Positions 47,677-64,000 of a stretch of 64,000 bases of DNA are shown here, one piece after another (positions within the stretch are counted from its first letter, which is position 1; the number at the start of each line of letters is the position of its first letter). The notes beneath the pieces are model-generated. The model did not search any database, was not told the DNA's origin, and saw only the letters and a program-made list of their open reading frames with translations. The stretch is taken from assembly GCF_000381025.1 (NCBI RefSeq), contig NZ_KB905816.1, forward strand, positions 62,001-126,000. Reading direction: 5' to 3'. The stretch is from Streptomyces sulphureus DSM 40104 (GTDB taxonomy: Bacteria; Actinomycetota; Actinomycetes; Streptomycetales; Streptomycetaceae). The position numbers were made by a program, and so were the translations under genes.

Positions 47677-47784
47677 GGCGCATAGGGGTGTCGACGGGAC
47701 AACTGGGCTTGCTTGTCTGTCTGTTGCTCCCGTTCGCGGAGACGTCCCGCACGATCCGATTTCATCTCTCAGGAGAGTTCTTTC

Positions 47785-50700
47785 GTGGTGGAAGAAGCCC
47801 GCGACGTCCTCGTTACCGGTATCGCGCACCGCGAGGAATCCCGTTCGCTCTGGGAGACCGCCTGGCGCGCTGTCGAGGACGCCGGTGCCGTTCCCTCCCC
47901 CGCGCACCCGGTGGTCGTGTTCGCCGATGCCGGGGACCCGCCGGAGTGGACCGCGCTCCCGGGGCTGGAGCTCCGCCCGGCCTCGGGCCGCGACCCGTTC
48001 GCGGTCGCCGTCGACTGCCTCCGCGAGGAGCCGGTGGCCCTCGTCGTCGTGTACGACGAACCGACCGGCACCGCCGCGGCGCTGGCTCGGGCGACACCGG
48101 GCGCCGACGCCCACGGCGCGCTGGCCGCGCACGAGGGACGCGCGGCGCAGCTCGCCGCCCTGCGACCGCGCTCCGAGCCCAATACCCCTGGCAATTCGGC
48201 GAGTTGGTGCTCGCCGGTCCCGCTGCTCGTGTCGGGCCGCACCGAGGCCGGGTTGCGGGCGTTCGCCGGTGACCTCGCCGGCCACCTCGTCGACCATCCG
48301 GACGTCCCGCTGCCCGACCTCGCCTTGAGCCTCGCCTCCGCGCGTACGGTGTGGCCGCACCGCACGGTGGTGGAGGCCGCCGACCGGGACTCGGCGGTCA
48401 CGGCGCTGCGTGCGCTGGCTGCGGGCACGCCAGGCGGAACGACGGTGCACACGGGGACCGGGACGGGAGCCGTGTTCGTCTTCCCGGGCCAGGGGACCCA
48501 GTGGCAGGGCATGGCGCGCGAACTCGCCGAGACAGCACCGGTCTTCGCGGAACGCCTGGCCGCGTGCGGGCGAGCGCTTCGCCCCCGCATGGACGTCGCG
48601 CTCGACGACGTCCTCTCGGGCGGCGTGCCGATGGACCGGGTCGACGTCATCCAGCCCGCGCTCTTCGCCGTCATGGTCTCGCTCGCAGAGCTGTGGCGGT
48701 CGAACGGCGTCGTCCCGCGCGCCATGGTGGGGCACAGTTTCGGGGAGATCGCGGCGGTGACCGCGGCAGGGGGCCTCTCCCTGGAGGACGGCGCCCGGCT
48801 CGTCGCCGCGGTGAGCAGCACGCTCGCCCTCCTCGAGGGAGAGGGCGACATGGTCGCCGTGGCGCTCGGCGTCGAGGAGCTGGAAGGGCTCGTCGACGAG
48901 TGGCGCCTGGAGTTGGAGAGCGCCGTCGTCAACGGGCCGCGGTCGACCGTGGTTTCCGGTCCGCCCGACGCGGCGGCGGCGCTGCTGGAACGTCTGGCCG
49001 AACGGGGCGTGCACGCACGCCGACTGCCGATCGGGATCGCCGGCCACTCGCGGCACATGGACCGTATCCGCGAGCGGCTGACAAGGGAGGCGGCGGCGGT
49101 CCGGCCCCGCGCCTCCGCGGTCCCCGTCTACGGTTCGACGGCGACAACGCCGCTCGACACCGCGCACCTCGACCCAGGGCACTGGTTCCGCAGCCTGCGC
49201 AGCACGGCGGAGTTCCAGCGCGTCACGGAGACGCTCCTGGCAGGGGGGCACCGCCTGTTCGTGGAGATCAGCCCGCACCCGGTGCTGGCGATGCCGATCG
49301 AGGAGACGGCCGCGCACGCCGGCACGGCCGCGACCGTCCTCGACACGATGCGCCGTGACGACGCGGGCCACGGCCGGTACCTGCGCGCGCTCGCCGAGTC
49401 CCACGCGCACGGCGCGGAGCCGGACTGGGCCACCGCGCTGCCCGGCGCTCGACGCGTACCGCTGCCGCCATACCCGTTCGACCGCGACGCGGCGACGGAC
49501 GGCGAGGCCGTCCGGCTGCGGGAGCGGCTGGCCGGGCTGGACGAGGGCGGCCGGCTGTCGGCCGTGGTGCGGCTCGTCGTCGACGCGCTCCCTCTGCGGG
49601 AAGGGGACGAAGCCGCGCCGTCCGCTGACTTCGGGTCACTCGGGGTGGACTCCGCCGGGTCGCTCCGCGTCCGACACCGTCTGGTGGAGAGCACCGGGTT
49701 GCGGCTGCCCGTCACGGCGCTCTTCGACCATCCGACGCCGCACGCCCTGGCGGAGGAGATGCTGCGCATGCTCTCCGGGGCGCCGGCCGCGTGCGCGGAC
49801 GAGGCGGCGGACGCCTCGCCGCCCCGGGAGGAGGCGATCGCCGTCGTGGGGATGGCCTGCCGGTTGCCGGGCGGGGTGCGTTCGCCCGCGGACCTGTGGG
49901 GGATGGTCGTCGAAGGGCGGGAGGGGGTCGCTCCCTTCCCCACCGACCGCGGCTGGGACCTCGACGCGCTCTACGACCCGGACCCCTCCCGTCCCGGCAC
50001 CTTCTACCAGCGTGAGGCGGCGCTGCTCGACGGTGTCGACGAGTTCGACGCCGCCTTCTTCGGTATCGCGCGTCGGGAGGCGCTGGCGTTGGACCCGCAG
50101 CAGCGGCTGCTGCTGGAGACGGCGTGGGAGGCGCTGGAGCACGGCGGCCTCGTCCCGGGCTCACTGCGCGGCAGCCGCACCGGCGTCTTCACCGGCGTCA
50201 TGCACCTGCCCTATGGCCGGCCGCCGCACCAGGCTGCGCCCGACCTGGAGGGCTACGTGGTGACCGGCACGGCCTCCAGCATGGCCTCCGGCCGGCTCTC
50301 CTACGTCCTGGGGCTCGAAGGCCCGGCGGTGACGGTGGACACGGCGTGCTCCTCGTCGCTCGTGGCGCTGCACCTCGCCTGCCAGGCGCTGCGCAACGGG
50401 GAGTGCGACGCGGCCCTCGCCGGCGGAGCCACCGTGATGGCGACGCCCGGGCTGTTCATCGAGTTCAGCAGGTTGCGCGCGCTGGCGCCCGACGGTCGGT
50501 GCAAGCCGTTCTCCGCCGATGCGGACGGCTTCGGCATGGCCGAGGGGGCGGGGATGCTGGTGGTGGAGCGGTTGTCGGACGCCAGGCGGCTCGGCCATCA
50601 AGTCCTCGCCGTGGTACGGGGGTCCGCCGTCAACCAGGACGGCGCGTCCAACGGACTGACCGCACCCAACGGCCCGTCACAGCAGCGCGTCATCCGGGCG

Positions 50701-53700
50701 GCGCTGCGTCATGCGCAAGTCTCCGCCGCAGATGTGGACTTGTTGGAAGCTCACGGCACCGGGACGCGGCTGGGGGACCCGATCGAGGTCCAGGCTCTGC
50801 AAGCGACGTACGGGCGTGCCCACTCCGCGGACCGCCCGCTCCACCTCGGCAGCGACAACACACACGCGGGCGTCGCCGGGCTCATCAAGGCCGTCCAGGC
50901 ACTCCGCCACGAGACGCTGCCGCCCACCCTCCACACCGACCGCCCTACGAACGCCGTCGATTGGGCGTCGGGAACCCTCGGTCTCCTCGCCGCCCCCCGA
51001 CCTTGGCCCCGGCACGACCGCCCGCGCCACGCCGCCGTCTCCGCCTTCGGTATCAGCGGCACCAACGCGCACGTCGTCCTGGGAGAAGGCGACCCGGCAA
51101 CCGAACCTTCCACAACTCCTCCGGCGTGGACGGACGTTGCCGTGCCGCTGGTGCTGTCGGCGAAGACGCCCGAGGCCCTGCACGCCCAAGCCGCCGCGCT
51201 GCACGAACACCTGACCCGGCATCCCGACGAGCCCCTCCACCACACCGCCCGCACCCTCACCCAGCACCGCACCCACCACGCCCACCGCACCCACGCCACC
51301 GGCACCCGCGCCGAGATCCTCGACCGCCTCGCCCATCCCGGCACCGTCCAGGCCAAGCCCAGCGGAATCGCCGCTCTCTACCCCGGCCAGGGGACCCAAC
51401 ACCCCGCCATGGGGCAGCAACTCGCCCGGCACTTCCCCGCTTACGCACAGGCCCTGGAGGAAGCCGCCGCCCACCTCGACCCCTTCCTCCCGCAGCCTCT
51501 ACGCACCCTTTTGGAGAACCCCGATCCCACGCACCACGCCCAACCCCTCCTCTTCGCCCACCAATACGCCCTAACCCACCTCTACCGCACACACGGCCTC
51601 ACCCTCACCACCCTCACCGGCCACTCCATCGGCGAAATCACCGCCGCCACCACCGCCGGCATCCTCACCCTCCACGACGCCACACACCTCCTCACCACCC
51701 GCGCCCACCTCATACACCAACTCCCCCCACACGGCACCATGCTCGCCATCCAAGCCACCGAACACGCAGTCCTGAGCACCCTCACCCCCACCGTCGCCCT
51801 CGCCGCAGTGAACGGCCCCCGAGCCGTCGTCATCTCCGGCCCCGCACAAGACGTCCAGCAGATCGGCGACCTGTGGCGCCGCCGCGGCCGACGCACCACA
51901 CCGCTGCGCGTCAGCCACGCCTTCCACTCTCCTCTCATGGACCCCGTCCTCGACGAGTTCAGGGAGACGGTGGAGAGCCTGCGGTTCGCCCAACCGACCC
52001 TCCCCATCGTCCCGTCGGCCGACAGCCCCCATCCGATGACGAGCCCGGAGTACTGGGTCGACCAGATCCGCAACACCGTCCGGTTCCACGACGCGGCGGC
52101 CCGGCTGCCGGAGACCGACCTCCTGCTGGAGATCGGCCCGGAGGCCACCCTCGCCGCGATGCTCGACACGGACCGCGTCGTCCTGCCCGACGCCCGACGC
52201 GGCCGCGGTGAGGTGCACACCGTGCTGGACACGCTCGCCCGTGCGCACACCCATGGCGCCTCCGTCGACTGGTCCGCGCTCCTCCCGCCCGCACCACCCG
52301 CCGACCTCCCCACCTACCCCTTCCAACGCGAGCGCTACTGGCTCAACTCGACGTCCGACACCGACACTTCACCGGGAACCGACCGACAGCCGCATCCGAT
52401 GCTTCCGCTCCGCACCGACCTGCCGGACCAGGGCGGCGTGCTGCTCTCCGGCCGGCTGGCACCGGCGAGCGACCCGTGGCTGTCGCACCACGTGGTGCGA
52501 GGCACCGTGCTGCTCCCCGGGACGGGGTTCGTCGAGCTGGCGCTCGAAGCCGCTCGCGCCGTGGGCGCCGCCTCCGTCGACGAACTGGTGCTCAGCGCCC
52601 CCATGGTCTTCCCCGAATGCAAGCCCCGCGACGTCCAGGTGTGGATCGCGCCGCCGGACGAAGGCGCCGAACGTGCGCTGCACGTCCGCACCCGCGGCCC
52701 GGGAGGCGACTGGACGCTGCACGCCACGGGAACCCTGGCGGCGCGCACCGCCGACACGAGCGCCTTCACCCCGGACTGGACCGGCGCCGACTGGCCGCCC
52801 GAGGGCGCAGATCCGGTACCGGGCGACACCTTCTACGCCGACCTGGCGGCACGCGGCTACGAGTACGGCCCGGCCTTCCGCGGGACGCGCGCCGTGTGGC
52901 AGCGGGGCGACGACCTCTTCGCCGAGGTCGCGCTCCCCGAAGGCCAGCCCGAGGGGTTCGGCCTCCACCCGGCGCTGCTCGACGCGGCGCTCCACGCCCT
53001 GCCGCTCACCGGCCGCCTCTACGAGGGCGACGAGGTGCGGCTGCCGTTCTCGTTCAACGGTGTGTCGCTCCTCGCCGCCGACGCCCGACGGCTACGGGTG
53101 CGGGTACAGACGGCGCGGTCGGGCCCGGGCGCGGCGGCCGTCAGCATCACCGACTCCTCGGGAACCCCCGTGCTCGCCCTGGAGTCGCTGACGCTGCGCC
53201 CCCTGGAACAGGGGCAGTTGGAGGCGTCGAGGCCGGTCGGGCGGTTCGCCGTCGCCTGGGAGCGGCTGCCCGACACCGGGGCGGCGTCCGAGGTGCCCGG
53301 CACCTGGCTCGTGCTGGGCGACCCGCCTCCCGGCCTCGACGCGGTGTTCCGGCACCTCCTCACCCCCGCCTCCTGGGACCGCTCGACCGCCCCCGACGGC
53401 GTCCTGGTCTGCGCGGGGCGCGCGGAGGAGCTGCTCGTCTGGCTCCACGAGGTATCGGCGCTGACGGCTCCCGTCTGGTGCGTCACGAGCGGCGCCGTAG
53501 GGGTCGGGGTGGACGATCCCGAAGCCGACGTGCACGCGGCAGGGGCGTGGGGGCTGGGCAGAGTCGCCGGGCTGGAACTGCCCGAGCGGTGGGGCGGCCT
53601 GATCGACCTCCCGGCGGAAAGCGGCGAGGCGTCCGGGCGGCTGCTCGCCGGGGTCCTCACCGGGGGCGGCGCGGAGGACCAACTCGCCGTGCGGGACGGA

Positions 53701-55077
53701 GCGTTGTGGGCGCGACGCCTGGTGGCGGCGCCTGCGCCGCCCGTCGCCGCCTGGGAGCCGAAGGGCACCGTGCTGATCACGGGCGGGACCGGCGGGCTCG
53801 GCGGCCACGTCGCGCGATGGCTGGCGGCCCGCGGCGGCACGGAGCGCCTGGTGCTGCTCTCCCGGCAGGGCCGGGCGGCGCCGGGCGCGGCGGAGCTGCT
53901 CGACGAGTTGACCGCGGCCGGCGCCTCGGCCGACGCGGCCGCCGTCGACGTCACCGACCGCGCGGCGCTTTCCGCTCTGCTCTCCGCGCTGGAGTCGGAG
54001 GGTGCGCCCGTCCGCAGCGTGGTGCACGCCGCCGGGATGGTGAGCGAGGTGCCGCTCCGTGAGACGAGCCCCGAGCAGCTCGCTTCCGAGACGGCCGCCA
54101 AGGTGGAGGGCGCGCTGCTGCTGGACGAACTGCTCCCGGAGCTCGACGAGTTCGTCCTGTTCTCCTCGATCTCCGGTATCTGGGGCGCCGCCGGGCAGTC
54201 CGGGTACGCGGCGGGCAACGCCTGTCTCGACGCGCTGGCGCGGCGGCGGCGCCGCCGGGGCAGGCCGGCGACGGCGCTCGCCTGGGGCCCGTGGTCGGGC
54301 GGCGGCATGCTGACCGAACGCGACGAGCGCGAGCTGCGCAGGCGCGGACTGGCTCCGCTGCCGGTGTCCGCCGCGCTGGACGCGCTCGGGCGGACCGTCG
54401 CGGCGGGCGGGGACGCGGTCGTCGTCGACGTCGCCTGGCCGCGGTTCCTGCCCGCGTTCACCGCGGCACGGCCCAGCCCGCTGCTGGCCGGGTTCGGGGA
54501 GTCGCCGTCCCCGCGGGCCCGGACGGCCGGCGAGGGGTCGCTGCGCGAGCGGCTCGCGGGCCTGCCGGAGGACGAGCGCGACGCGGCGGTGCTGAGTGTG
54601 GTCCGCGCCCAAGTGGCGTCGCTCGTCGGGGAGTCGGACCCGGAGCGGGTGGACCCGGAGCGGGCACTCAAGGACATCGGCTTCGACTCCCTGATGTCGG
54701 TGGAGCTCCGCAACCGGTTCGCCGACCTCGTCGGCGGCAAGCTCCCGGCCACCCTCGTCTTCGACCATCCGACGCCGCACGCGCTCGCCGCCCACCTCCT
54801 TACGCGGCTCGCCCCCCGGGAGCCGGACGACGGCGCGCTGCTCGACGCGTTCGACCGCGTCGAGACCGCGGCCCTGTCGCCGTCGACGGGAAGGGAGCAG
54901 CGCACCGCGCTCGCCGCCCGTCTCGACGCGCTGCGGGAGCGGCTGGCAGAGCTCGACGCGCAACCCGTATCGGCCACGAGCGCCCTGGAGTCGGCGAGCG
55001 CGGACGAGCTGATGCGGTTCATCGACTCCGAGTTCGGGACACCCGAGCCGCCGTCCTCCGGTAGGTGCACCTCATGA
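47785..55077 (+). CDS. Type I modular PKS: loading module (relic KS-AT-ACP) and extension module 1 (KS-AT-DH-KR-ACP)
   Basis: 2430-aa synthase starting at GTG 47785 (aggag 9 nt upstream). Domains by residue: relic KS about 10-132 (ETAWRAVEDAGAVP aligns to the KS ETAWEALEHGGLVP block, no Cys). Loading AT about 230-560 (GHSFGE Ser318, motif IAGHS at 418-422). ACP Ser623. KS1 about 683-1100 (Cys855, HGTGT His990, but KSNIGH missing at about 1023). AT1 about 1199-1500 (GHSIGE Ser1281, HAFHS near 1378, malonyl type). DH1 (HVVRGTVLLP from His1569; DAALH Asp1733). KR1 from about 1994 (Tyr2141; no LDD and a Trp in GIWGAAGQ, so A-type). ACP Ser2302. A C-terminal class 1 docking region is about 2370-2430. 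Stop and next start overlap as ATGA. Confidence 0.95.
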   Translation: MVEEARDVLVTGIAHREESRSLWETAWRAVEDAGAVPSPAHPVVVFADAGDPPEWTALPGLELRPASGRDPFAVAVDCLREEPVALVVVYDEPTGTAAALARATPGADAHGALAAHEGRAAQLAALRPRSEPNTPGNSASWCSPVPLLVSGRTEAGLRAFAGDLAGHLVDHPDVPLPDLALSLASARTVWPHRTVVEAADRDSAVTALRALAAGTPGGTTVHTGTGTGAVFVFPGQGTQWQGMARELAETAPVFAERLAACGRALRPRMDVALDDVLSGGVPMDRVDVIQPALFAVMVSLAELWRSNGVVPRAMVGHSFGEIAAVTAAGGLSLEDGARLVAAVSSTLALLEGEGDMVAVALGVEELEGLVDEWRLELESAVVNGPRSTVVSGPPDAAAALLERLAERGVHARRLPIGIAGHSRHMDRIRERLTREAAAVRPRASAVPVYGSTATTPLDTAHLDPGHWFRSLRSTAEFQRVTETLLAGGHRLFVEISPHPVLAMPIEETAAHAGTAATVLDTMRRDDAGHGRYLRALAESHAHGAEPDWATALPGARRVPLPPYPFDRDAATDGEAVRLRERLAGLDEGGRLSAVVRLVVDALPLREGDEAAPSADFGSLGVDSAGSLRVRHRLVESTGLRLPVTALFDHPTPHALAEEMLRMLSGAPAACADEAADASPPREEAIAVVGMACRLPGGVRSPADLWGMVVEGREGVAPFPTDRGWDLDALYDPDPSRPGTFYQREAALLDGVDEFDAAFFGIARREALALDPQQRLLLETAWEALEHGGLVPGSLRGSRTGVFTGVMHLPYGRPPHQAAPDLEGYVVTGTASSMASGRLSYVLGLEGPAVTVDTACSSSLVALHLACQALRNGECDAALAGGATVMATPGLFIEFSRLRALAPDGRCKPFSADADGFGMAEGAGMLVVERLSDARRLGHQVLAVVRGSAVNQDGASNGLTAPNGPSQQRVIRAALRHAQVSAADVDLLEAHGTGTRLGDPIEVQALQATYGRAHSADRPLHLGSDNTHAGVAGLIKAVQALRHETLPPTLHTDRPTNAVDWASGTLGLLAAPRPWPRHDRPRHAAVSAFGISGTNAHVVLGEGDPATEPSTTPPAWTDVAVPLVLSAKTPEALHAQAAALHEHLTRHPDEPLHHTARTLTQHRTHHAHRTHATGTRAEILDRLAHPGTVQAKPSGIAALYPGQGTQHPAMGQQLARHFPAYAQALEEAAAHLDPFLPQPLRTLLENPDPTHHAQPLLFAHQYALTHLYRTHGLTLTTLTGHSIGEITAATTAGILTLHDATHLLTTRAHLIHQLPPHGTMLAIQATEHAVLSTLTPTVALAAVNGPRAVVISGPAQDVQQIGDLWRRRGRRTTPLRVSHAFHSPLMDPVLDEFRETVESLRFAQPTLPIVPSADSPHPMTSPEYWVDQIRNTVRFHDAAARLPETDLLLEIGPEATLAAMLDTDRVVLPDARRGRGEVHTVLDTLARAHTHGASVDWSALLPPAPPADLPTYPFQRERYWLNSTSDTDTSPGTDRQPHPMLPLRTDLPDQGGVLLSGRLAPASDPWLSHHVVRGTVLLPGTGFVELALEAARAVGAASVDELVLSAPMVFPECKPRDVQVWIAPPDEGAERALHVRTRGPGGDWTLHATGTLAARTADTSAFTPDWTGADWPPEGADPVPGDTFYADLAARGYEYGPAFRGTRAVWQRGDDLFAEVALPEGQPEGFGLHPALLDAALHALPLTGRLYEGDEVRLPFSFNGVSLLAADARRLRVRVQTARSGPGAAAVSITDSSGTPVLALESLTLRPLEQGQLEASRPVGRFAVAWERLPDTGAASEVPGTWLVLGDPPPGLDAVFRHLLTPASWDRSTAPDGVLVCAGRAEELLVWLHEVSALTAPVWCVTSGAVGVGVDDPEADVHAAGAWGLGRVAGLELPERWGGLIDLPAESGEASGRLLAGVLTGGGAEDQLAVRDGALWARRLVAAPAPPVAAWEPKGTVLITGGTGGLGGHVARWLAARGGTERLVLLSRQGRAAPGAAELLDELTAAGASADAAAVDVTDRAALSALLSALESEGAPVRSVVHAAGMVSEVPLRETSPEQLASETAAKVEGALLLDELLPELDEFVLFSSISGIWGAAGQSGYAAGNACLDALARRRRRRGRPATALAWGPWSGGGMLTERDERELRRRGLAPLPVSAALDALGRTVAAGGDAVVVDVAWPRFLPAFTAARPSPLLAGFGESPSPRARTAGEGSLRERLAGLPEDERDAAVLSVVRAQVASLVGESDPERVDPERALKDIGFDSLMSVELRNRFADLVGGKLPATLVFDHPTPHALAAHLLTRLAPREPDDGALLDAFDRVETAALSPSTGREQRTALAARLDALRERLAELDAQPVSATSALESASADELMRFIDSEFGTPEPPSSGRCTS
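51138..51766 (+). repeat. AT-region direct repeat, copy 1 (module 1)
   Basis: 629 bp from the KS-AT linker through the AT active site, matching 56501-57129 at constant offset 5363 with 6 mismatches and no gaps. The repeat is very C-rich and G-poor on the coding strand compared with flanking PKS DNA. A further 106-bp near-identical block at the AT end (52245-52350) pairs with 57620-57725 with 2 mismatches. Confidence 0.95.
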
Positions 55078-58000
55078 CAGACGAAAGCCAGCTCGTCGAG
55101 TACCTCCGCAAGGTCACCACCGACCTGCAGAAGACGCGCTCGCGCCTGCGGGAGGTCGAAGGGCGCGACAGCGAGCCGATCGCGGTGGTGGGGATCGGCT
55201 GCCGCTACCCGGGCGGGGTGCGCTCGGCCGAGGACCTGTGGCGGGTCGCGGCCGAAGGCCGGGACGAGATCACCGGGTTCCCCACCGACCGGGGCTGGGA
55301 CGTGGCCAACCTCTACGATCCGGACCCCGAGGCGGTGGGCAGGTCGTACACCCGCGAAGGCGGCTTCCTCACCGGCATCGACCTCTTCGACGCGGAGTTC
55401 TTCGGCCTCAGCCCCCGCGAGGCACTGGCGATGGACCCGCAGCAGCGGCTCCTGCTGGAGACGACCTGGGAGGCGCTGGAGCACGGCGGCCTCGTCCCCG
55501 GCTCGCTGCGCGGCAGCCGCACCGGCGTCTTCACCGGCGTCATGCACCACGACTACGGCGGGCGGTTCCCACGGACCCCCGAGGGGTTCGAGGGCTACCT
55601 CCACACGGGCAGCGCGGGCAGCATGGCCGTCGGCCGGGTCTCCTACCTCTTCGGGCTGGAGGGCCCAGCCGTGACGGTGGACACCGCATGCTCCTCGTCG
55701 CTCGTGGCGCTGCACCTCGCCTGCCAGGCGCTGCGCAACGGGGAGTGCGACCTGGCGCTCGCCGGCGGCGTCGCGGTGATGGCGACACCGACGTTCTTCG
55801 TCGAATACAGCCGCCAGCGGGTGCTCTCCTCAGACGGCCGGTGCCGTTCGTTCTCGGACGACGGTGAGGGCACGGGGTGGTCCGAGGGGGTGGGGGTGCT
55901 GGCGGTGGAGCGGTCGTCGGACGCACGGCGGCTCGGCCACCGGGTCCTTGCGCTCGTGCGGGGATCGGCCGTCAACCAGGACGGTGCGTCCAACGGGATG
56001 ACCGCGCCCAGCGGTCCCTCGCAGCAGCGCGTCATCCGGGCGGCGCTGCGTCATGCGCAAGTCTCCGCCGCAGAGGTGGACTTGTTGGAGGCCCACGGCA
56101 CCGGGACGCGGCTGGGGGACCCGATCGAGGCGCAGGCTCTGCAAGCGACGTACGGGCGTGCCCACTCCGCGGAACGTCCGCTCCACCTCGGCAGTCTCAA
56201 GTCCAACATCGGCCACACCCAGGCCGCCGCAGGCGTCGCCGGCGTCATCAAGGCGATCGGGGCGATGCGTCACCGCACGCTTCCGGCGACCCTCCACGCC
56301 GAACGCCCCTCGACCGAGGTCGACTGGACGCCCGGCACGCTGCGTCTCCTCGTCCGCTCCCAGCCGTGGGAGCCGGCTCCTCATCCGCGGCGCGCAGGCG
56401 TCTCCTCGTTCGGGATGAGCGGCACCAACGCGCACGTGATCGTCGAGGAGGGCGACCCGACACCCGACGAGCCGCCGACGGCGCCGAGTTGGGCGGAGAC
56501 CGCCGTGCCGCTGGTGCTGTCGGCGAAGACGCCCGAGGCCCTGCACGCCCAAGCCGCCGCACTGCACGAACACCTGACCCGGCATCCCGACGAGCCCCTC
56601 CACCACACCGCCCGCACCCTCACCCACCACCGCACCCACCACGCCCACCGCACCCACGCCACCGGCACCCGCACCGAGATCCTCGACCGCCTCGCCCATC
56701 CCGGCACCGTCCAGGCCAAGCCCAGCGGAATCGCCGCTCTCTACCCCGGCCAGGGGACCCAACACCCCGCCATGGGGCAGCAACTCGCCCGGCACTTCCC
56801 CGCCTACGCACAGGCCCTGGAGGAAGCCGCCGCCCACCTCGACCCCTTCCTCCCGCAGCCTCTACGCACCCTTATGGAGAACCCCGATCCCACGCACCAC
56901 GCCCAACCCCTCCTCTTCGCCCACCAATACGCCCTCACCCACCTCTACCGCACACACGGCCTCACCCTCACCACCCTCACCGGCCACTCCATCGGCGAAA
57001 TCACCGCCGCCACCACCGCCGGCATCCTCACCCTCCACGACGCCACACACCTCCTCACCACCCGCGCCCACCTCATACACCAACTCCCCCCACACGGCAC
57101 CATGCTCGCCATCCAAGCCACCGAACACGAGATCACCACCACCCTCGACTCGGCCGACCCCGACCAAGTGAGCATCGCCGCCGTCAACGGACCCCGAGCC
57201 GTCGTCATCTCCGGCACAGAGAAGAACGTCCAGCAGATCGGCGACCTATGGCGCCGCCGCGGCCGACGCACCACACCACTGCGCGTCAGCCACGCCTTCC
57301 ACAGCCCTCTCATGGAACCCGTCCTCGACGAGTTCGCCGCCGCCCTCGAAGAGCTCACCTTCCACGAGCCGACCGTCCCCGTCGTCCCGACCGCCGACAG
57401 CCCCCATCCGATGACCAGCCCCGCCTACTGGGTCGACCAGATCCGCAACACCGTCCGGTTCCACGACGCGCTCGTCCAACTCCCGGCCGACGACCTCCTC
57501 CTGGAGATCGGCCCGGACGCCGCGCTCACCCCGCTCATCACCACGGGGCACACCGCTTTCGCCAGCGCCCGGCGGGACGAGGACGAGACCGGCTCCTTCC
57601 TCCGTTCCCTCGCCGACGTGCACACCCACGGCGCCTCCGTCGACTGGTCCGCGCTCCTCCCGCCCGCACCACCCGCCGACCTCCCCACCTACCCCTTCCA
57701 ACGCGAGCGCTACTGGCTGAACTCGGCGCCTCCGGAGGGCGCGGGCAGCGACGCCGTCGACCACCCGTTCCTCACCGGCGCCACGGAACTGCCCGCCGAC
57801 GGCGGCCTGGTGCTCAGCGGCAGGGTCTCCCCCTCGACCGACCCGTGGCTCGCCGACCACGCCGTCGCGGGCAGCGTCCTCCTCGCCGGTACGGGGTTCC
57901 TGGAGCTCGCCTGCACGGCCGCACGCCGCGCGGGGTGCGGGCACCTCGGTGAACTGGTCGTCGAAACACCGCTGTTGCTGCCGGCGACCGGCAGCGACGT

Positions 58001-61000
58001 GCAGGTGTGGGTGGCCGCGCCGGGAGACGGCGACCGGGACCTGGTGATCCGCTCCCGGGACGGGGACGGCGACTGGGTGGTGCACGCGACGGGAACGCTC
58101 GCCGAGTCGGTCGACCGGACGGCCGACGTCGGGTGGGCACGCCCGTGGCCGCCTGCGGAGGCCGAGGAGATCCCCGTCGAGGAGCTCTACGAGGAGCTGG
58201 CCGCCCGCGGCTACGCGTACGGGCCCGCCTTCCGCGGCCTGCGCGCGGTGTGGCGGTCGGAGGGGGAGACGTACGCCGAAGTGGCCCTCCCCGCGGGCTG
58301 CGAGGACACGCGCCTCGCCGTCCACCCCGCGCTGCTGGACGCCGCGTTGCACCCGTTGGCCGTCGGCGCCTCCCGCGACATCCGGTTGCCGTTCGTCTTC
58401 GGCCCCACCACCGTGCACTCCCCCGGCGCCCGCGCGCTGCGCGTCCGGCTCCGGACGGCTGCCGGGTCCGTGCGGCTCGACGCCGTCGCCGACTCGGGGG
58501 AACCGGTGCTCAGCACCGAGGGGCTCGTGCTGCGCACGGTGGACACCGGCCGGCTGGCCGCCCGCGTGCCCGCGCGGGTGGACGCGCTGCGGCACGAGGT
58601 GACCTGGCAGCGCGTCGCCGACGTCCCGTCGCCCGAACCGGCCCCCGGCACCTGGCTGGTCCTGTCGACGGCGTCCGCCGCGCCCTCGTGGAGCGCGGCC
58701 CCCGTCGAGGACGCCGTCACCGTCGACTTCGACGGGGAGGAGGGACGCGCGGAGCTCGCCGCGCGGCTGCCCGACGGGGAGTTCGCCGGTGTCCTGTGCT
58801 TCGCACGGCGCCCGGTGGAGCTGCTCACGGCCGTGCAGGCGCTCGCCGACGCAGGGGTGGCCGCCGGGGTCTGGTGCGTCACCCACCGCGCGGACGACGA
58901 CCCGGATGCCGCGGCCGTGTGGGGCCTCGGGCGGGTCGCCGCACTCGAACTGCCCGACCGGTGGGGCGGGTTGGTCGACGTGCCGGAGGAGCGCACCGAC
59001 TCCGCCGCCGTCCGCCTGGCGGGGTTGCTCTCCGGCGGCAGCGACGAGGACCAGGTGCGCATCGCGGACGACGGCGTCTTCGTACGCCGTCTCGTCGCCG
59101 CCGCGCCGGCAGGCGAGCCGGACGGCTGGGAGCCCTCGGGGTCGGTGCTGATCACCGGCGGAACGGGGGCGCTCGGCGCCCACGTCGCCCGCTGGGTGGC
59201 CCGACTCGGCGGCTGCTCCGTCCTGTTGGTCTCCCGCCGGGGCCCCGAGGCGCCCGGCGCGGCGGAGCTGGTGGCGGAGCTGGCCGCCTGCGGCACACCG
59301 GCACGCGCCGTCGCGGCGGACGTCGCGGACCGGGAGGCGGTGACCGCACTCGCACGAGAGGCGGCCGCAAGCGGTGCGCCCGTCCGTGCGGTCTTCCACG
59401 CCGCGGGGATCGGCGCCCAGAAGCCGCTGCTGGAGACCGGGCACGAGGACCTGCGGTCCGTCATGGCGGCGAAGGCCGAGGGCGCCCGGGTCCTCGACGA
59501 GGTGTTCGCCGACGCCGAGTTGGACGCCTTCGTGCTCTTCTCCTCCGTCTCCGGCACCTGGGGCGCGGCCGGCCAGGCGGGGTACGGCGCCGCCAACGCC
59601 GCACTCGACGCGGTCGCCGCGCGGCGACGGGCACGAGGGCTGGCGGCGGCCTCGCTCGCGTGGGGCCCGTGGGCCGGCGGCGGCATGGTCGACGCCGAGC
59701 GGGAGCGGCAGCTCCGCCGACGCGGCCTCGTGCCGCTGCCCGTCGCCGATGCCCTTGCGGCGCTTGCCCGTTCGGTCGCGCTGGGCGGGGACGGCGTGCT
59801 CGTCGACGCGGCGTGGCCGCGGTTCCTTCCGCTCTTCACCGCGGCGAGGCCGGCGCCGCTCTTCGCGAAGTTCCTCCGCGGCTCCGAGGAAGCGCCGGAG
59901 ACGGCCGGACGGTTCGCCGCCGTCCCGCCCGCCGAGCGGGAGCGGGACCTGCGGGAGCTGGTGCGGGCCGAAGTCGCCGCCGCCATCGGCCAGTCGGACC
60001 CCACCCGGGTCGACCTCGACCGTCCGCTGCACGAGCTCGGCTTCGACTCCCTCATGTCCGTCCGGCTCCGCGATCGGCTCGCCGCGGCGACCGGCGTCCG
60101 ACTCCCGGCGACGCTCGCCTTCGACCACCCCACCTCCACCGCGCTCACGCACCACCTGGAATCCCTCCTCGCCCAAGCACCCGACGAGGAGCGGCGGGCC
60201 GCGGCCGCGCCGGCGTCCGCCGCGGAGCCCGTCGCGATCGTCGGCATGGCCTGCCGCTACCCGGGCGGGGTCGCGACGCCGGAGGACCTGTGGCGGCTCG
60301 TCGCCGAAGGACGCGATGCCGTCACCGGCTTCCCCACGGACCGCGGTTGGGACCTGGCCGGCCTCCACGCCCCGGACCGGGAGCGGACCGGTACGGCCCA
60401 CGCACGGGAGGGCGGTTTCCTCGACGACGTCGCCGGGTTCGACGCGGACTTCTTCGGCATCCCCCCTCGCGAGGCCCTGGCGATGGACCCGCAGCAGCGG
60501 CTCCTGCTGGAGGCTGCCTGGGAGGCCGTCGAGTCCGCCGGGATCGTCCCGGAGAGCCTGCGGGGCGCTCGGGCCGGGGTCTTCGCGGGGGTGATGTACA
60601 ACGACTACTACTCCCGGCTCGGCGGCATCCCCGACGGCCTGGAGGGCATCCTCGGCCTCGCCAACAGCAACAGCGTCATGTCGGGGCGCATCTCCTACCT
60701 GTTGGGGCTGGAAGGCCCGGCGGTGACGGTGGACACGGCGTGCTCGTCCTCGCTCGTGGCGCTGCACCTCGCCTGCCAGGCGCTGCGCAACGGGGAGTGC
60801 GACGCGGCCCTCGCCGGCGGAGCCACCGTGATGGCGACGCCCAACATCTTCGTCGAGTTCAGCCGCCAGGGCGGGCTCGCACGGGACGGCCGGTGCAAGT
60901 CGTTCTCCGCCGAGGCGGACGGCACCGGCTGGTCGGAGGGCGTGGGCGTGCTCCTCGTCGAGCGGTTGTCGGACGCCAGGCGGCTCGGCCATGAAGTCCT

Positions 61001-64000
61001 CGCCCTCGTACGGGGCTCCGCCGTCAACCAGGACGGCGCGTCCCACGGGCTGACCGCACCCAACGGCCCCTCGCAGCAGCGCGTCATCCGGGCGGCGCTC
61101 CGGCAGGCGGACGTCGACCCCGCCGACGTCGACCTCCTCGAGGCGCACGGCACGGGCACGCGGCTGGGCGATCCGATCGAGGCCCAGGCCCTTCAGGCCA
61201 CCTACGGGCGGGACCACACGCCCGACCGCCCCCTCCACCTCGGCAGTCTCAAGTCCAACATCGGCCACGCCCAGGCCGCCGCGGGCGTCGCCGGGCTCAT
61301 CAAGGCCGTCCAGGCACTCCGCCACGAGACGCTGCCGCCCACCCTCCACGCCGACCACCCCACACCCGAGATCGACTGGAGCCCCCGCACCCTCCACCTC
61401 CTCACCGGGCCCCAGCCCTGGCCCCGCACCGGCACCGCCCGCCATGCCGCCGTGTCCTCCTTCGGCATCAGCGGCACCAACGCGCACGTCGTCCTCGAAG
61501 AAGGCGACCCGCTGCCCGCGCACACGCCGGCGCCGGAGTCGGGGCGGCCGGTACCGTTCGTCCTCTCCTCCCGCACCCCCGGCGCACTGCCCGCTCAAGC
61601 GCGGGCGCTGCGCGCACACCTGGCGGCGCACCCGGAGTTCGCGCCGCAGGACGTGGCGCGGGCGCTCGCCACCGCCCGTTCGGCGTCCGCGCACCGGGCC
61701 GTGGTCGTCGCCGCGGACCGGCAACAACTGCTCGACGCGCTCGGTGCACTCGGCGAGGGCCCCGACGCCGTAGCCCCCGCCTCCGTGCGGACCGGGACGG
61801 CGCGACCGGGGCGCACGGTGCTGATGTTCCCGGGGCAGGGTTCGCAGTGGGCAGGCATGGGCCGCGAACTGCTCGCGGAGAGCGAGGTGTTCGCCGCCTC
61901 GCTCCGGGAGTGCGAAGAGGCGCTGGCACCTTTCGTCGAGTGGTCGCTGCGGGACGTGCTCGCGGACGGCAGCGCCGCCGCGGCGCCCGTCGACGTCGTG
62001 CAGCCCGCGCTCTTCGCGGTGATGGTCTCGCTGGCAAGGGTGTGGCAGGACTGGGGCGTCCCCGTCGACGGGGTGGTCGGCCACTCGCAGGGCGAGATCG
62101 CCGCCGCCTGCGTCTCGGGGGCGCTGTCCCTCGGCGACGGCGCGCGGGTGGTGGCCACCAGGTCCCGCCTGCTCGCCGAACTCGCGGGCACAGGCGGGAT
62201 GGTCTTCGTCGGCCTGCCCGTCGACGAGGTGCGGCACCGCCTCGACGGCAGGCTCTCGCTCGCCTCCGTCAACGGTCCGGGCTCCGTCGTGGTGTCCGGG
62301 CCGGACGACGCGCTCGGCGAACTCGTCGCGTCCGCGCGGGCCGACGGCGTCCACACCCGTCGGGTCGACGTCGACTACGCCTCGCACTCCCCCGCCGTCG
62401 AGGCCGTACGCGACCGCCTGCTGACGGAACTCGCCGGGTTGGCGCCGCGGGAGGGCGCGATGCCGCTCTACTCGACGGTGACGGGCACCCGGCTGACCGG
62501 CAGTGAGCTGGACGCCGAGTACTGGTACCGCAATCTGCGCGAGACGGTGCGGTTGGAGACGTCCGTCGAGGCGCTGGCGGCCGACGGGTTCGGGTTCTTC
62601 GCCGAGTGCAGCCCGCACCCCGTACTCACCGTCGGCGTGCGGGAGACCCTCGACGCGCTCGGCGCCGAGGGCACGGTCCTCGGCACGCTGCGGCGGGAGG
62701 ACGGCGGGACCGAGCGGCTGCTCCGCTCCCTGGCGGAGGGGTACGTCGACGGGCTGCCGGCCGACTGGCACCGGGTGCTCGGCGCCGGCGGGACCGTACC
62801 GCTCCCGACGTACGCCTTCCAGCACGAGCGCTTCTGGCTGGACGCGCCCCAACCCGCCGGCACGGCGGGCGCGTTCGCCGCGGACTCGCGGTTCTGGGAC
62901 GCCGTGGAGCGCGAGGACCTCGGAGAGCTGGCGGCCGAGCTCGGCGGGGGCGAGGGGCTCGCCGAGGCGCTCCCCGCGCTCGCGGCCTGGCGCCGCCGCA
63001 GCAGGCGGCAGGCCGACCTCGACTCGTGGCGGTACGAAGTGGCCTGGCACGCGCACCCGGTCCCCGAGGGACGCCCTGCGGGCCGGTGGCTCCTCCTGAC
63101 CAGCCGCACGCCGGAGGCGGAGCGGGTCGGTTCCCTCCTCGCCGACCGCGGCTTGGCGTGCGTACCGCTGACCCTCGGCGCGGACGACGCCGACCGGGCC
63201 GCACTCGCCGCCCGCCTAGACGGGGCGGCCGGCGGAGAGTACGCAGGCGTGCTCTCGCTGCTGGGACTCGACGAGCGGCCGCACCCGTCGCTGCAAGGAC
63301 TGACGACGGGGCTCGCCCTGACGGTCGCCGCGGTGCAGGCGCTCGGCGACACCGGCGTCAACGCCCCGCTGTGGGCGGTCACGTGCGGAGCGACGGACGT
63401 CGACGAGGCGCCGCTGCACCCGGGCCGGCACCAGGTCTGGGGGCTGGGGCGGGTGGTCGCCCTGGAGCACTCCGCACGGTGGGGCGGCCTCGTCGACCTC
63501 CCCGAGGAGCCGGACGGTCCCGCCGCCGAGGCGCTCCTCGGCGTCCTCGCCTCCGGCCACGACGAGGACCAGTGGGCGATCCGCGGCGCCGGAACGCGCG
63601 TACGCAGGCTCGTCCGCCGCTCTCCCGCAGCGCCGCGCGACCCGTGGCGTCCGTCGGGCACCGTCCTCATCACCGGGGCCGGCGGCTCGCTGGGCCCGCA
63701 CCTCGCACGGTCGGTGGCCGAGCGCGGGGCGTCGCACGTGGCCCTGGTGAGCAGGCGGGGGGCCGCCTCTCCAGGCGTCCCCGAACTCCTCGCCGAGCTG
63801 CGGGAGTCGGGCTGCCGGGCGGAGGCGTACGCCTGCGACGTACGGGACCAGGAGGGGCTGCGCACCGTGCTGCGGGACCTGGCGGACACCGGCCGTCCGG
63901 TGACGACGGCGGTGCACGCCGCCGCCCACCTGGACATCGCCTCGCTGGAGTCGACGACGCTCGGCCACTTCGCGGAGGTGGTGGACGCGAAGGTCGCAGG
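55074..64000 (+). CDS. Type I modular PKS: extension module 2 (KS-AT-DH-KR-ACP) and start of module 3 (KS-AT-KR), cut by window end
   Basis: Open from ATG 55074 to the right edge (2975 complete codons). The N-terminal coiled-coil docking helix (QLVEYLRKVTTDLQKTRSRL) suits the upstream protein's tail. KS2 about 34-459 (Cys206, KSNIGH present). AT2 about 557-860 (GHSIGE Ser639, HAFHS near 740, malonyl). DH2: His929 in HAVAGSVLLA, with the usual Pro replaced by Ala; Asp1089 in DAALH. KR2 from about 1358 (Tyr1504; no LDD, Trp in GTWGAAGQ, A-type). ACP Ser1659. KS3 from about 1718 (Cys1890). AT3 (GHSQGE Ser2338, YASHS at 2435, methylmalonyl type). No DH: the AT is followed directly by a KR structural half and KR3 (GAGGSLG near 2864), truncated. 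Confidence 0.95.
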   Translation, partial: MTDESQLVEYLRKVTTDLQKTRSRLREVEGRDSEPIAVVGIGCRYPGGVRSAEDLWRVAAEGRDEITGFPTDRGWDVANLYDPDPEAVGRSYTREGGFLTGIDLFDAEFFGLSPREALAMDPQQRLLLETTWEALEHGGLVPGSLRGSRTGVFTGVMHHDYGGRFPRTPEGFEGYLHTGSAGSMAVGRVSYLFGLEGPAVTVDTACSSSLVALHLACQALRNGECDLALAGGVAVMATPTFFVEYSRQRVLSSDGRCRSFSDDGEGTGWSEGVGVLAVERSSDARRLGHRVLALVRGSAVNQDGASNGMTAPSGPSQQRVIRAALRHAQVSAAEVDLLEAHGTGTRLGDPIEAQALQATYGRAHSAERPLHLGSLKSNIGHTQAAAGVAGVIKAIGAMRHRTLPATLHAERPSTEVDWTPGTLRLLVRSQPWEPAPHPRRAGVSSFGMSGTNAHVIVEEGDPTPDEPPTAPSWAETAVPLVLSAKTPEALHAQAAALHEHLTRHPDEPLHHTARTLTHHRTHHAHRTHATGTRTEILDRLAHPGTVQAKPSGIAALYPGQGTQHPAMGQQLARHFPAYAQALEEAAAHLDPFLPQPLRTLMENPDPTHHAQPLLFAHQYALTHLYRTHGLTLTTLTGHSIGEITAATTAGILTLHDATHLLTTRAHLIHQLPPHGTMLAIQATEHEITTTLDSADPDQVSIAAVNGPRAVVISGTEKNVQQIGDLWRRRGRRTTPLRVSHAFHSPLMEPVLDEFAAALEELTFHEPTVPVVPTADSPHPMTSPAYWVDQIRNTVRFHDALVQLPADDLLLEIGPDAALTPLITTGHTAFASARRDEDETGSFLRSLADVHTHGASVDWSALLPPAPPADLPTYPFQRERYWLNSAPPEGAGSDAVDHPFLTGATELPADGGLVLSGRVSPSTDPWLADHAVAGSVLLAGTGFLELACTAARRAGCGHLGELVVETPLLLPATGSDVQVWVAAPGDGDRDLVIRSRDGDGDWVVHATGTLAESVDRTADVGWARPWPPAEAEEIPVEELYEELAARGYAYGPAFRGLRAVWRSEGETYAEVALPAGCEDTRLAVHPALLDAALHPLAVGASRDIRLPFVFGPTTVHSPGARALRVRLRTAAGSVRLDAVADSGEPVLSTEGLVLRTVDTGRLAARVPARVDALRHEVTWQRVADVPSPEPAPGTWLVLSTASAAPSWSAAPVEDAVTVDFDGEEGRAELAARLPDGEFAGVLCFARRPVELLTAVQALADAGVAAGVWCVTHRADDDPDAAAVWGLGRVAALELPDRWGGLVDVPEERTDSAAVRLAGLLSGGSDEDQVRIADDGVFVRRLVAAAPAGEPDGWEPSGSVLITGGTGALGAHVARWVARLGGCSVLLVSRRGPEAPGAAELVAELAACGTPARAVAADVADREAVTALAREAAASGAPVRAVFHAAGIGAQKPLLETGHEDLRSVMAAKAEGARVLDEVFADAELDAFVLFSSVSGTWGAAGQAGYGAANAALDAVAARRRARGLAAASLAWGPWAGGGMVDAERERQLRRRGLVPLPVADALAALARSVALGGDGVLVDAAWPRFLPLFTAARPAPLFAKFLRGSEEAPETAGRFAAVPPAERERDLRELVRAEVAAAIGQSDPTRVDLDRPLHELGFDSLMSVRLRDRLAAATGVRLPATLAFDHPTSTALTHHLESLLAQAPDEERRAAAAPASAAEPVAIVGMACRYPGGVATPEDLWRLVAEGRDAVTGFPTDRGWDLAGLHAPDRERTGTAHAREGGFLDDVAGFDADFFGIPPREALAMDPQQRLLLEAAWEAVESAGIVPESLRGARAGVFAGVMYNDYYSRLGGIPDGLEGILGLANSNSVMSGRISYLLGLEGPAVTVDTACSSSLVALHLACQALRNGECDAALAGGATVMATPNIFVEFSRQGGLARDGRCKSFSAEADGTGWSEGVGVLLVERLSDARRLGHEVLALVRGSAVNQDGASHGLTAPNGPSQQRVIRAALRQADVDPADVDLLEAHGTGTRLGDPIEAQALQATYGRDHTPDRPLHLGSLKSNIGHAQAAAGVAGLIKAVQALRHETLPPTLHADHPTPEIDWSPRTLHLLTGPQPWPRTGTARHAAVSSFGISGTNAHVVLEEGDPLPAHTPAPESGRPVPFVLSSRTPGALPAQARALRAHLAAHPEFAPQDVARALATARSASAHRAVVVAADRQQLLDALGALGEGPDAVAPASVRTGTARPGRTVLMFPGQGSQWAGMGRELLAESEVFAASLRECEEALAPFVEWSLRDVLADGSAAAAPVDVVQPALFAVMVSLARVWQDWGVPVDGVVGHSQGEIAAACVSGALSLGDGARVVATRSRLLAELAGTGGMVFVGLPVDEVRHRLDGRLSLASVNGPGSVVVSGPDDALGELVASARADGVHTRRVDVDYASHSPAVEAVRDRLLTELAGLAPREGAMPLYSTVTGTRLTGSELDAEYWYRNLRETVRLETSVEALAADGFGFFAECSPHPVLTVGVRETLDALGAEGTVLGTLRREDGGTERLLRSLAEGYVDGLPADWHRVLGAGGTVPLPTYAFQHERFWLDAPQPAGTAGAFAADSRFWDAVEREDLGELAAELGGGEGLAEALPALAAWRRRSRRQADLDSWRYEVAWHAHPVPEGRPAGRWLLLTSRTPEAERVGSLLADRGLACVPLTLGADDADRAALAARLDGAAGGEYAGVLSLLGLDERPHPSLQGLTTGLALTVAAVQALGDTGVNAPLWAVTCGATDVDEAPLHPGRHQVWGLGRVVALEHSARWGGLVDLPEEPDGPAAEALLGVLASGHDEDQWAIRGAGTRVRRLVRRSPAAPRDPWRPSGTVLITGAGGSLGPHLARSVAERGASHVALVSRRGAASPGVPELLAELRESGCRAEAYACDVRDQEGLRTVLRDLADTGRPVTTAVHAAAHLDIASLESTTLGHFAEVVDAKVA
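56501..57129 (+). repeat. AT-region direct repeat, copy 2 (module 2)
   Basis: Second copy of the 629-bp AT segment, in module 2. Both copies encode the malonyl-type GHSIGE active site and the His-rich post-KS linker. The near identity suggests recent duplication or gene conversion between modules. Confidence 0.95.

Follow-up and report, generated by a model that had tools for sequence, protein, structure and literature searches.

A probable scar of recombination in the KSNIGH motif of the first extension KS of a Streptomyces sulphureus PKS

The phoslactomycin PKS (Pn/Plm) uses a cyclohexanecarboxyl-CoA starter and has seven extension modules (PMC7496768, PMC9730843), with the loading module and module 1 in PnA and modules 2 and 3 in PnB (PMC7496768). 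In the KS mechanism, the malonyl carboxylate is coordinated by the two His residues (His293 and His331 in metazoan FAS numbering; PMC12267109). When PKS recombination is induced in the laboratory, the junctions frequently fall within KS or AT (PMC5663706), and GRINS, which combine GC and TA skew with >90% identity, have been proposed as drivers of PKS gene conversion (PMC10394414, PMC11907408).

The cluster described here, part of which lies in a window of 64,000 nucleotides of S. sulphureus DNA (the whole stretch that was analysed), resembles the phoslactomycin PKS at the sequence level. Gene A (47713..55077, + strand, with a provisional start; 2454 aa), delimited by its ORF, translation, Pfam domains and a motif scan, encodes a loading AT-ACP and module 1 (KS-AT-DH-KR-ACP), and gene B (55065..63998 in the window, + strand, running on to 64952 outside it) encodes module 2 (KS-AT-DH-KR-ACP) and module 3 (KS-AT-KR-ACP), so that AT-ACP loading and module 1 form one protein and modules 2 and 3 the next, as in PnA and PnB. 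Beyond the window lie gene C, gene D, which includes a thioesterase, gene E (DH-ER-KR), and, on the opposite strand, gene F. As in the phoslactomycin PKS, there are seven extension modules, module 1 has a DH, and an EPSP synthase/CoA-ligase fusion and a crotonyl-CoA carboxylase/reductase are found nearby. Both are encoded downstream, along with a P450, an MFS transporter, and a LuxR regulator; the reductase scores above its curated cut-off, and the ligase part of the 1059-aa fusion has as its best model TIGR03208 (cyclohexanecarboxylate-CoA ligase), with a score below that model's cut-off. Unlike in phoslactomycin biosynthesis, where Pn takes malonyl and then ethylmalonyl, AT3 here carries YASH (methylmalonyl-type) and the module 4 AT carries HAFH (malonyl-type); in addition, module F is on the opposite strand and the KS1 motif has been lost. 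Since the AT3 and AT4 motifs disagree with the extenders of phoslactomycin (malonyl AT3, ethylmalonyl AT4), we do not claim a product identity. Other motif variants were seen in the same genome. DH2 (57756-58559, gene B) reads HAVAGSVLLA where its orthologue, HAVSGAVLLP, has the Pro of HxxxGxxxxP, and the module 4 AT (gene C, L104:864-5789, just outside the window) has GHSVGA in place of GHSxGE. In a second PKS, outside the window (G000:C5:227500-231500; L134, minus strand), a KS is wholly decayed inside a long open frame, with DTGDSSS for DTACSSS, YGGREE for HGTGT, and GTSIGH for KSNIGH, and the next AT lacks GHSxGE.

Gene A and module 2 have orthologues in the PKS of S. pacificus CWH03 (L026/L131) and in that of a second genome (G445), with 77-78% aa identity in KS1 and 82% in KS2, and the S. 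pacificus EPSPS-ligase fusion shows 77% identity across its first 270 aa. Lower values were obtained for AT1, AT2, and the part of module 3 beyond its KS, which are just 39-55% identical to their S. pacificus/G445 counterparts. For AT3, KR3, and ACP3 (61.8-64.9 kb) the identity is 39-49%, as against 80% for KS3; judged by sequence, module 3 looks to have been replaced after the KS. The cluster here also has additional modules; in the 20 kb that follow the S. pacificus and G445 genes, no more KS domains were found.

KS1 (49819..51087, + strand) was delimited by Pfam (PF00109, 321 bits; PF02801, 109 bits), the motif scan, and an AF2 model. At the KSNIGH site, its assembled sequence reads LGSDNTHAGVAG, whereas KS2 and KS3 read LGSLKSNIGHTQAAAGVAG and LGSLKSNIGHAQAAAGVAG, respectively, i.e. 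LGSLKSNIGH(T/A)QAAAGVAG; in the motif scan all other KS domains of the cluster keep K-S-N-x-G-H, and every later KS keeps DTACSSS and EAHGTGT as well. An earlier note on this DNA had described the absence of the motif from KS1, which holds for the assembled sequence, as an in-frame loss of 21 nt. Its net size and frame stand, but the 21 nt were not simply deleted; one stretch took the place of another: the intact 33-nt motif blocks that DNA alignments identify in KS2 (56195..56227, + strand) and KS3 (61247..61279, + strand) are swapped in KS1 for a 12-nt filler, CGACAACACACA (50853..50864, + strand), which encodes S-D-N-T-H. Positions 50848-50880 accordingly read GGC AGC GAC AAC ACA CAC GCG GGC GTC GCC GG (GSDNTHAGVAG), in frame. 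Of the two residues that the note had considered removed, the motif Lys is indeed absent; the DNTH filler still has a His, which phmmer sets against the KSNIGH His with flanking gaps of 3 and 4 residues, and the loss of the second His is thus a question of position and alignment and not of mere absence. The Cys motif DTACSSS (Cys codon 50347-50349) and the EAHGTGT His are both intact, in agreement with the note, whose numbering of these residues as Cys855 and His990 counts from a point 24 codons further into the gene than the ORF start adopted here.

Sliding identity shows KS1 to be a mosaic of KS2-like and KS3-like DNA, and the lesion sits at a switch from the former to the latter. The KS2-like tract on its left (50683..50852, + strand) has ~95-98% DNA identity to KS2, which is favoured at 30/35 informative sites, with some preference for KS3 at the final few of them ahead of the lesion; the KS3-like tract on its right (50865..50937, + strand) has 97-100% DNA identity to KS3 over ~70 nt, with all 17 informative sites in agreement. 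This split of KS2 and KS3 sites was reached in 0 of 20,000 shuffles, a figure that is descriptive, the blocks having been chosen post hoc. Other KS2-like/KS3-like switches occur inside KS1 without any lesion. The filler itself consists almost solely of A and C, resembling skewed sequence close by. The 14-mer around the lesion, CGACAACACACACG, has no further exact copy anywhere in the 7.1-Mb genome, and a search of the genome for a donor of the 12-nt filler returned no exact copy and two one-mismatch matches, on contig C2.

The lesion lies where KS1 is similar first to one and then to another KS copy, which is where a chimeric join, too, would lie, and it is conceivable that the motif is intact in the genome and that short repeats common to KS1, KS2, and KS3 produced an incorrect join or consensus at 50853-50864. 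The sequence is an assembly in 26 contigs, and the lesion is common to no relative, both of which are compatible with such an artefact. On the other hand, the filler matches neither KS2 nor KS3 and has no second exact copy in the genome, so that a mis-join between repeats would not suffice to yield it; longer repeats nearby (621 nt, 99%) were assembled as separate copies, the frame is kept and the remaining PKS ORFs are open, and switches of the same kind in KS1 carry no lesion. A collapsed repeat was also considered, and the genome holds no second copy of KS1, the only matches being KS2 (81%) and KS3 (79%). Assembly error, which the earlier note had put forward as the main alternative, thus stays a rival but is not the default, and we regard it as unlikely.

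The recombination junction and the repeats near the lesion had no place in that note and were found here. A skewed, GRINS-type repeat in AT1 (51140..51760, + strand) is 99.0% identical over 621 nt to a partner in AT2 (56503..57123, + strand) recognised by identity and skew. GRINS have been delimited by >90% DNA identity within the same PKS, GC and TA skew of >25%, and a length of ~1 kb (PMC10394414). The AT1/AT2 pair is like them in its 99% identity inside one PKS and, a TA dip near 51450 aside, in its skew of >25%: in the AT1 repeat, GC skew ranges from about -0.3 to -0.66, and TA skew lies mostly between -0.24 and -0.5, weakening to -0.14 near 51450. The near-identical block measures 0.62 kb and the wider 1.5 kb is 86% identical, as against the ~1 kb of GRINS; the lesion lies just outside this block, within KS sequence that is less skewed. 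No skewed AT block was present in the S. pacificus orthologue, whose AT1 and AT2 have just 51-53% protein identity to those described here. The location of the lesion on a KS2/KS3 junction, beside GRINS-type repeats, accounts for how it could arise.

The KS1 lesion is probably a strain-specific scar of intragenic recombination (gene conversion) among KS1, KS2, and KS3, with loss of condensation. Gene conversion between the three coding regions, with KS2 and KS3 of gene B as the putative partners of KS1, would have put a KS2-like tract beside a KS3-like tract, and imprecise resolution at the junction may then have turned the 33 nt coding for L-K-S-N-I-G-H-x-Q-A-A into 12 nt, leaving S-D-N-T-H. 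It counts against this explanation that the filler is untemplated, so that gene conversion alone is insufficient, and an additional imprecise repair step, by end-joining or slippage, would be needed. The kept frame, a one-in-three chance event, could moreover hint at retained function, and the His in the filler is a further point against a loss of function. If a recombination scar is what we see, the KS1 protein would still fold and could be acylated on its Cys, and it would be unable to decarboxylate the malonyl extender or to condense, because it has neither the Lys nor a second His in the proper place; the strain would then not make the full-length product unless module 2 were primed directly.

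The lesion is best read as recent and strain-specific. Orthologues of the loading module are present in five other Streptomyces, including S. pacificus CWH03 (L026), and the KS1 motif is intact in all five, G445 among the relatives with an intact motif. Apart from KS1, each of the 212 distinct KS C-terminal segments from the loci analysed has the motif, either unchanged or, in 4 segments, with one residue altered. The exact DNTH form had no match outside the window's own genome among 393 Streptomyces genomes, in which two other matches with 2 mismatches were found, neither encoding DNTH. The shortened form, LGS...AGVAG[LV]IK, was found in none of the 392 other Streptomyces genomes by a pattern that detects only a minority of KS domains (~7 intact matches per 31 genomes). 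The earlier note had named as potential counterevidence active homologues that share the DNTH replacement, and none came to light in these Streptomyces genomes; in the alignment with KS domains of related clusters, a check that it had proposed, only the KS1 described here has the lesion.

The AF2 model of KS1 has a pLDDT of 87 and a PKS KS fold, with a best Z of 55.4 to 7s6c. Compared with an intact orthologue modelled from matched alignments, which likewise gives a KS fold, the block at 331-340 drops to a pLDDT of 74 from 95, and the helix after the motif starts approximately one turn later and is one turn shorter; a low-confidence region at 116-137 is likewise worse in KS1. With S. pacificus as reference, pN/pS is 0.33 for KS1, 0.28 for KS2, and 0.30 for KS3, and by this measure the remainder of KS1 is under purifying selection. 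The KS1 value is close to the other two, and long-term pseudogene decay of the domain is rejected on this ground. The near-universal motif, the disturbed local AF2 prediction, and what has been published on the part played by the two His residues (PMC12267109) back the earlier suggestion that module 1 may not condense, and on the evidence of sequence and model the lesion has probably disabled the first extension step. The kept frame, the purifying selection, the intact predicted fold, and the pairing of the DNTH His with the motif His by phmmer would also be expected if KS1 still condensed, with this His standing in for that of the motif and the shorter loop being tolerated. We consider this improbable, as the Lys has been lost from a near-invariant K-S-N-x-G-H, the late start of the post-motif helix by approximately one turn and the local drop in confidence make it unlikely in the model that the His is placed correctly, and no homologue found among the Streptomyces searched uses such a form.

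Natural KS domains without part of the Cys-His-His set include the non-elongating KS0 domains, which lack the HGTGT His, and the decarboxylating KSQ domains, in which the Cys is missing and Gln is in its place. KS1 resembles both in lacking a part of this set, but it keeps the residues that KS0 and KSQ lose and has lost the KSNIGH block instead; its EAHGTGT His and DTACSSS Cys therefore speak against a KS0 and a KSQ identity, respectively. Among the features of a condensing KS of cis-AT modular type I PKSs, the fold with its Pfam domains, DTACSSS, and EAHGTGT were found in KS1, and K-S-N-x-G-H with its Lys and second His was not.

The earlier note had also raised the possibility that the chain is passed on or begun differently, for which nothing beyond the lesion itself was found. 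Module 1 could in principle be a non-elongating relay whose KS1 accepts the starter and hands it on without extension, or it could be bypassed via direct priming of module 2, and the product would be one ketide shorter in either case. With the Cys and first His intact, acylation is conceivable; however, KS1 has the HGTGT His that known KS0 domains miss, no sequence feature is suggestive of adaptation to a relay, and the AT, DH, KR, and ACP motifs of module 1 are kept in the motif scan, though a permanent relay would not need them. As precedents for a bypass, the reference list of PMC9730843 includes direct priming of a downstream module in DEBS, and in a phoslactomycin mutant without the loading and first modules synthesis was restored by a fed cis diketide (PMC6264292). 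Taken together, we hold a relay or bypass to be very improbable. That the SDNTH form of KS1 is a working variant of any kind, either a condenser with a relocated His and without the motif Lys or an undescribed cis-AT non-elongating relay that hands on a cyclohexanecarboxyl-type starter, seems quite doubtful, and the lesion looks more like a one-off recombination scar than a new kind of enzyme.

A functional variant or relay module would, if true, be of real interest, the sole support for it being the intact Cys and first His. More generally, and provided that the sequence is right, this KS1 serves as a warning that a cluster predicted by domain counting to be complete may already fail at the first step, and it offers a natural test case for whether the Lys/His block of KSNIGH is dispensable. 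If the sequence is right, recombination of the type proposed to diversify assembly lines has here scarred a catalytic motif, in frame and with untemplated sequence, and the locus would be a natural snapshot of inter-module PKS gene conversion gone wrong.
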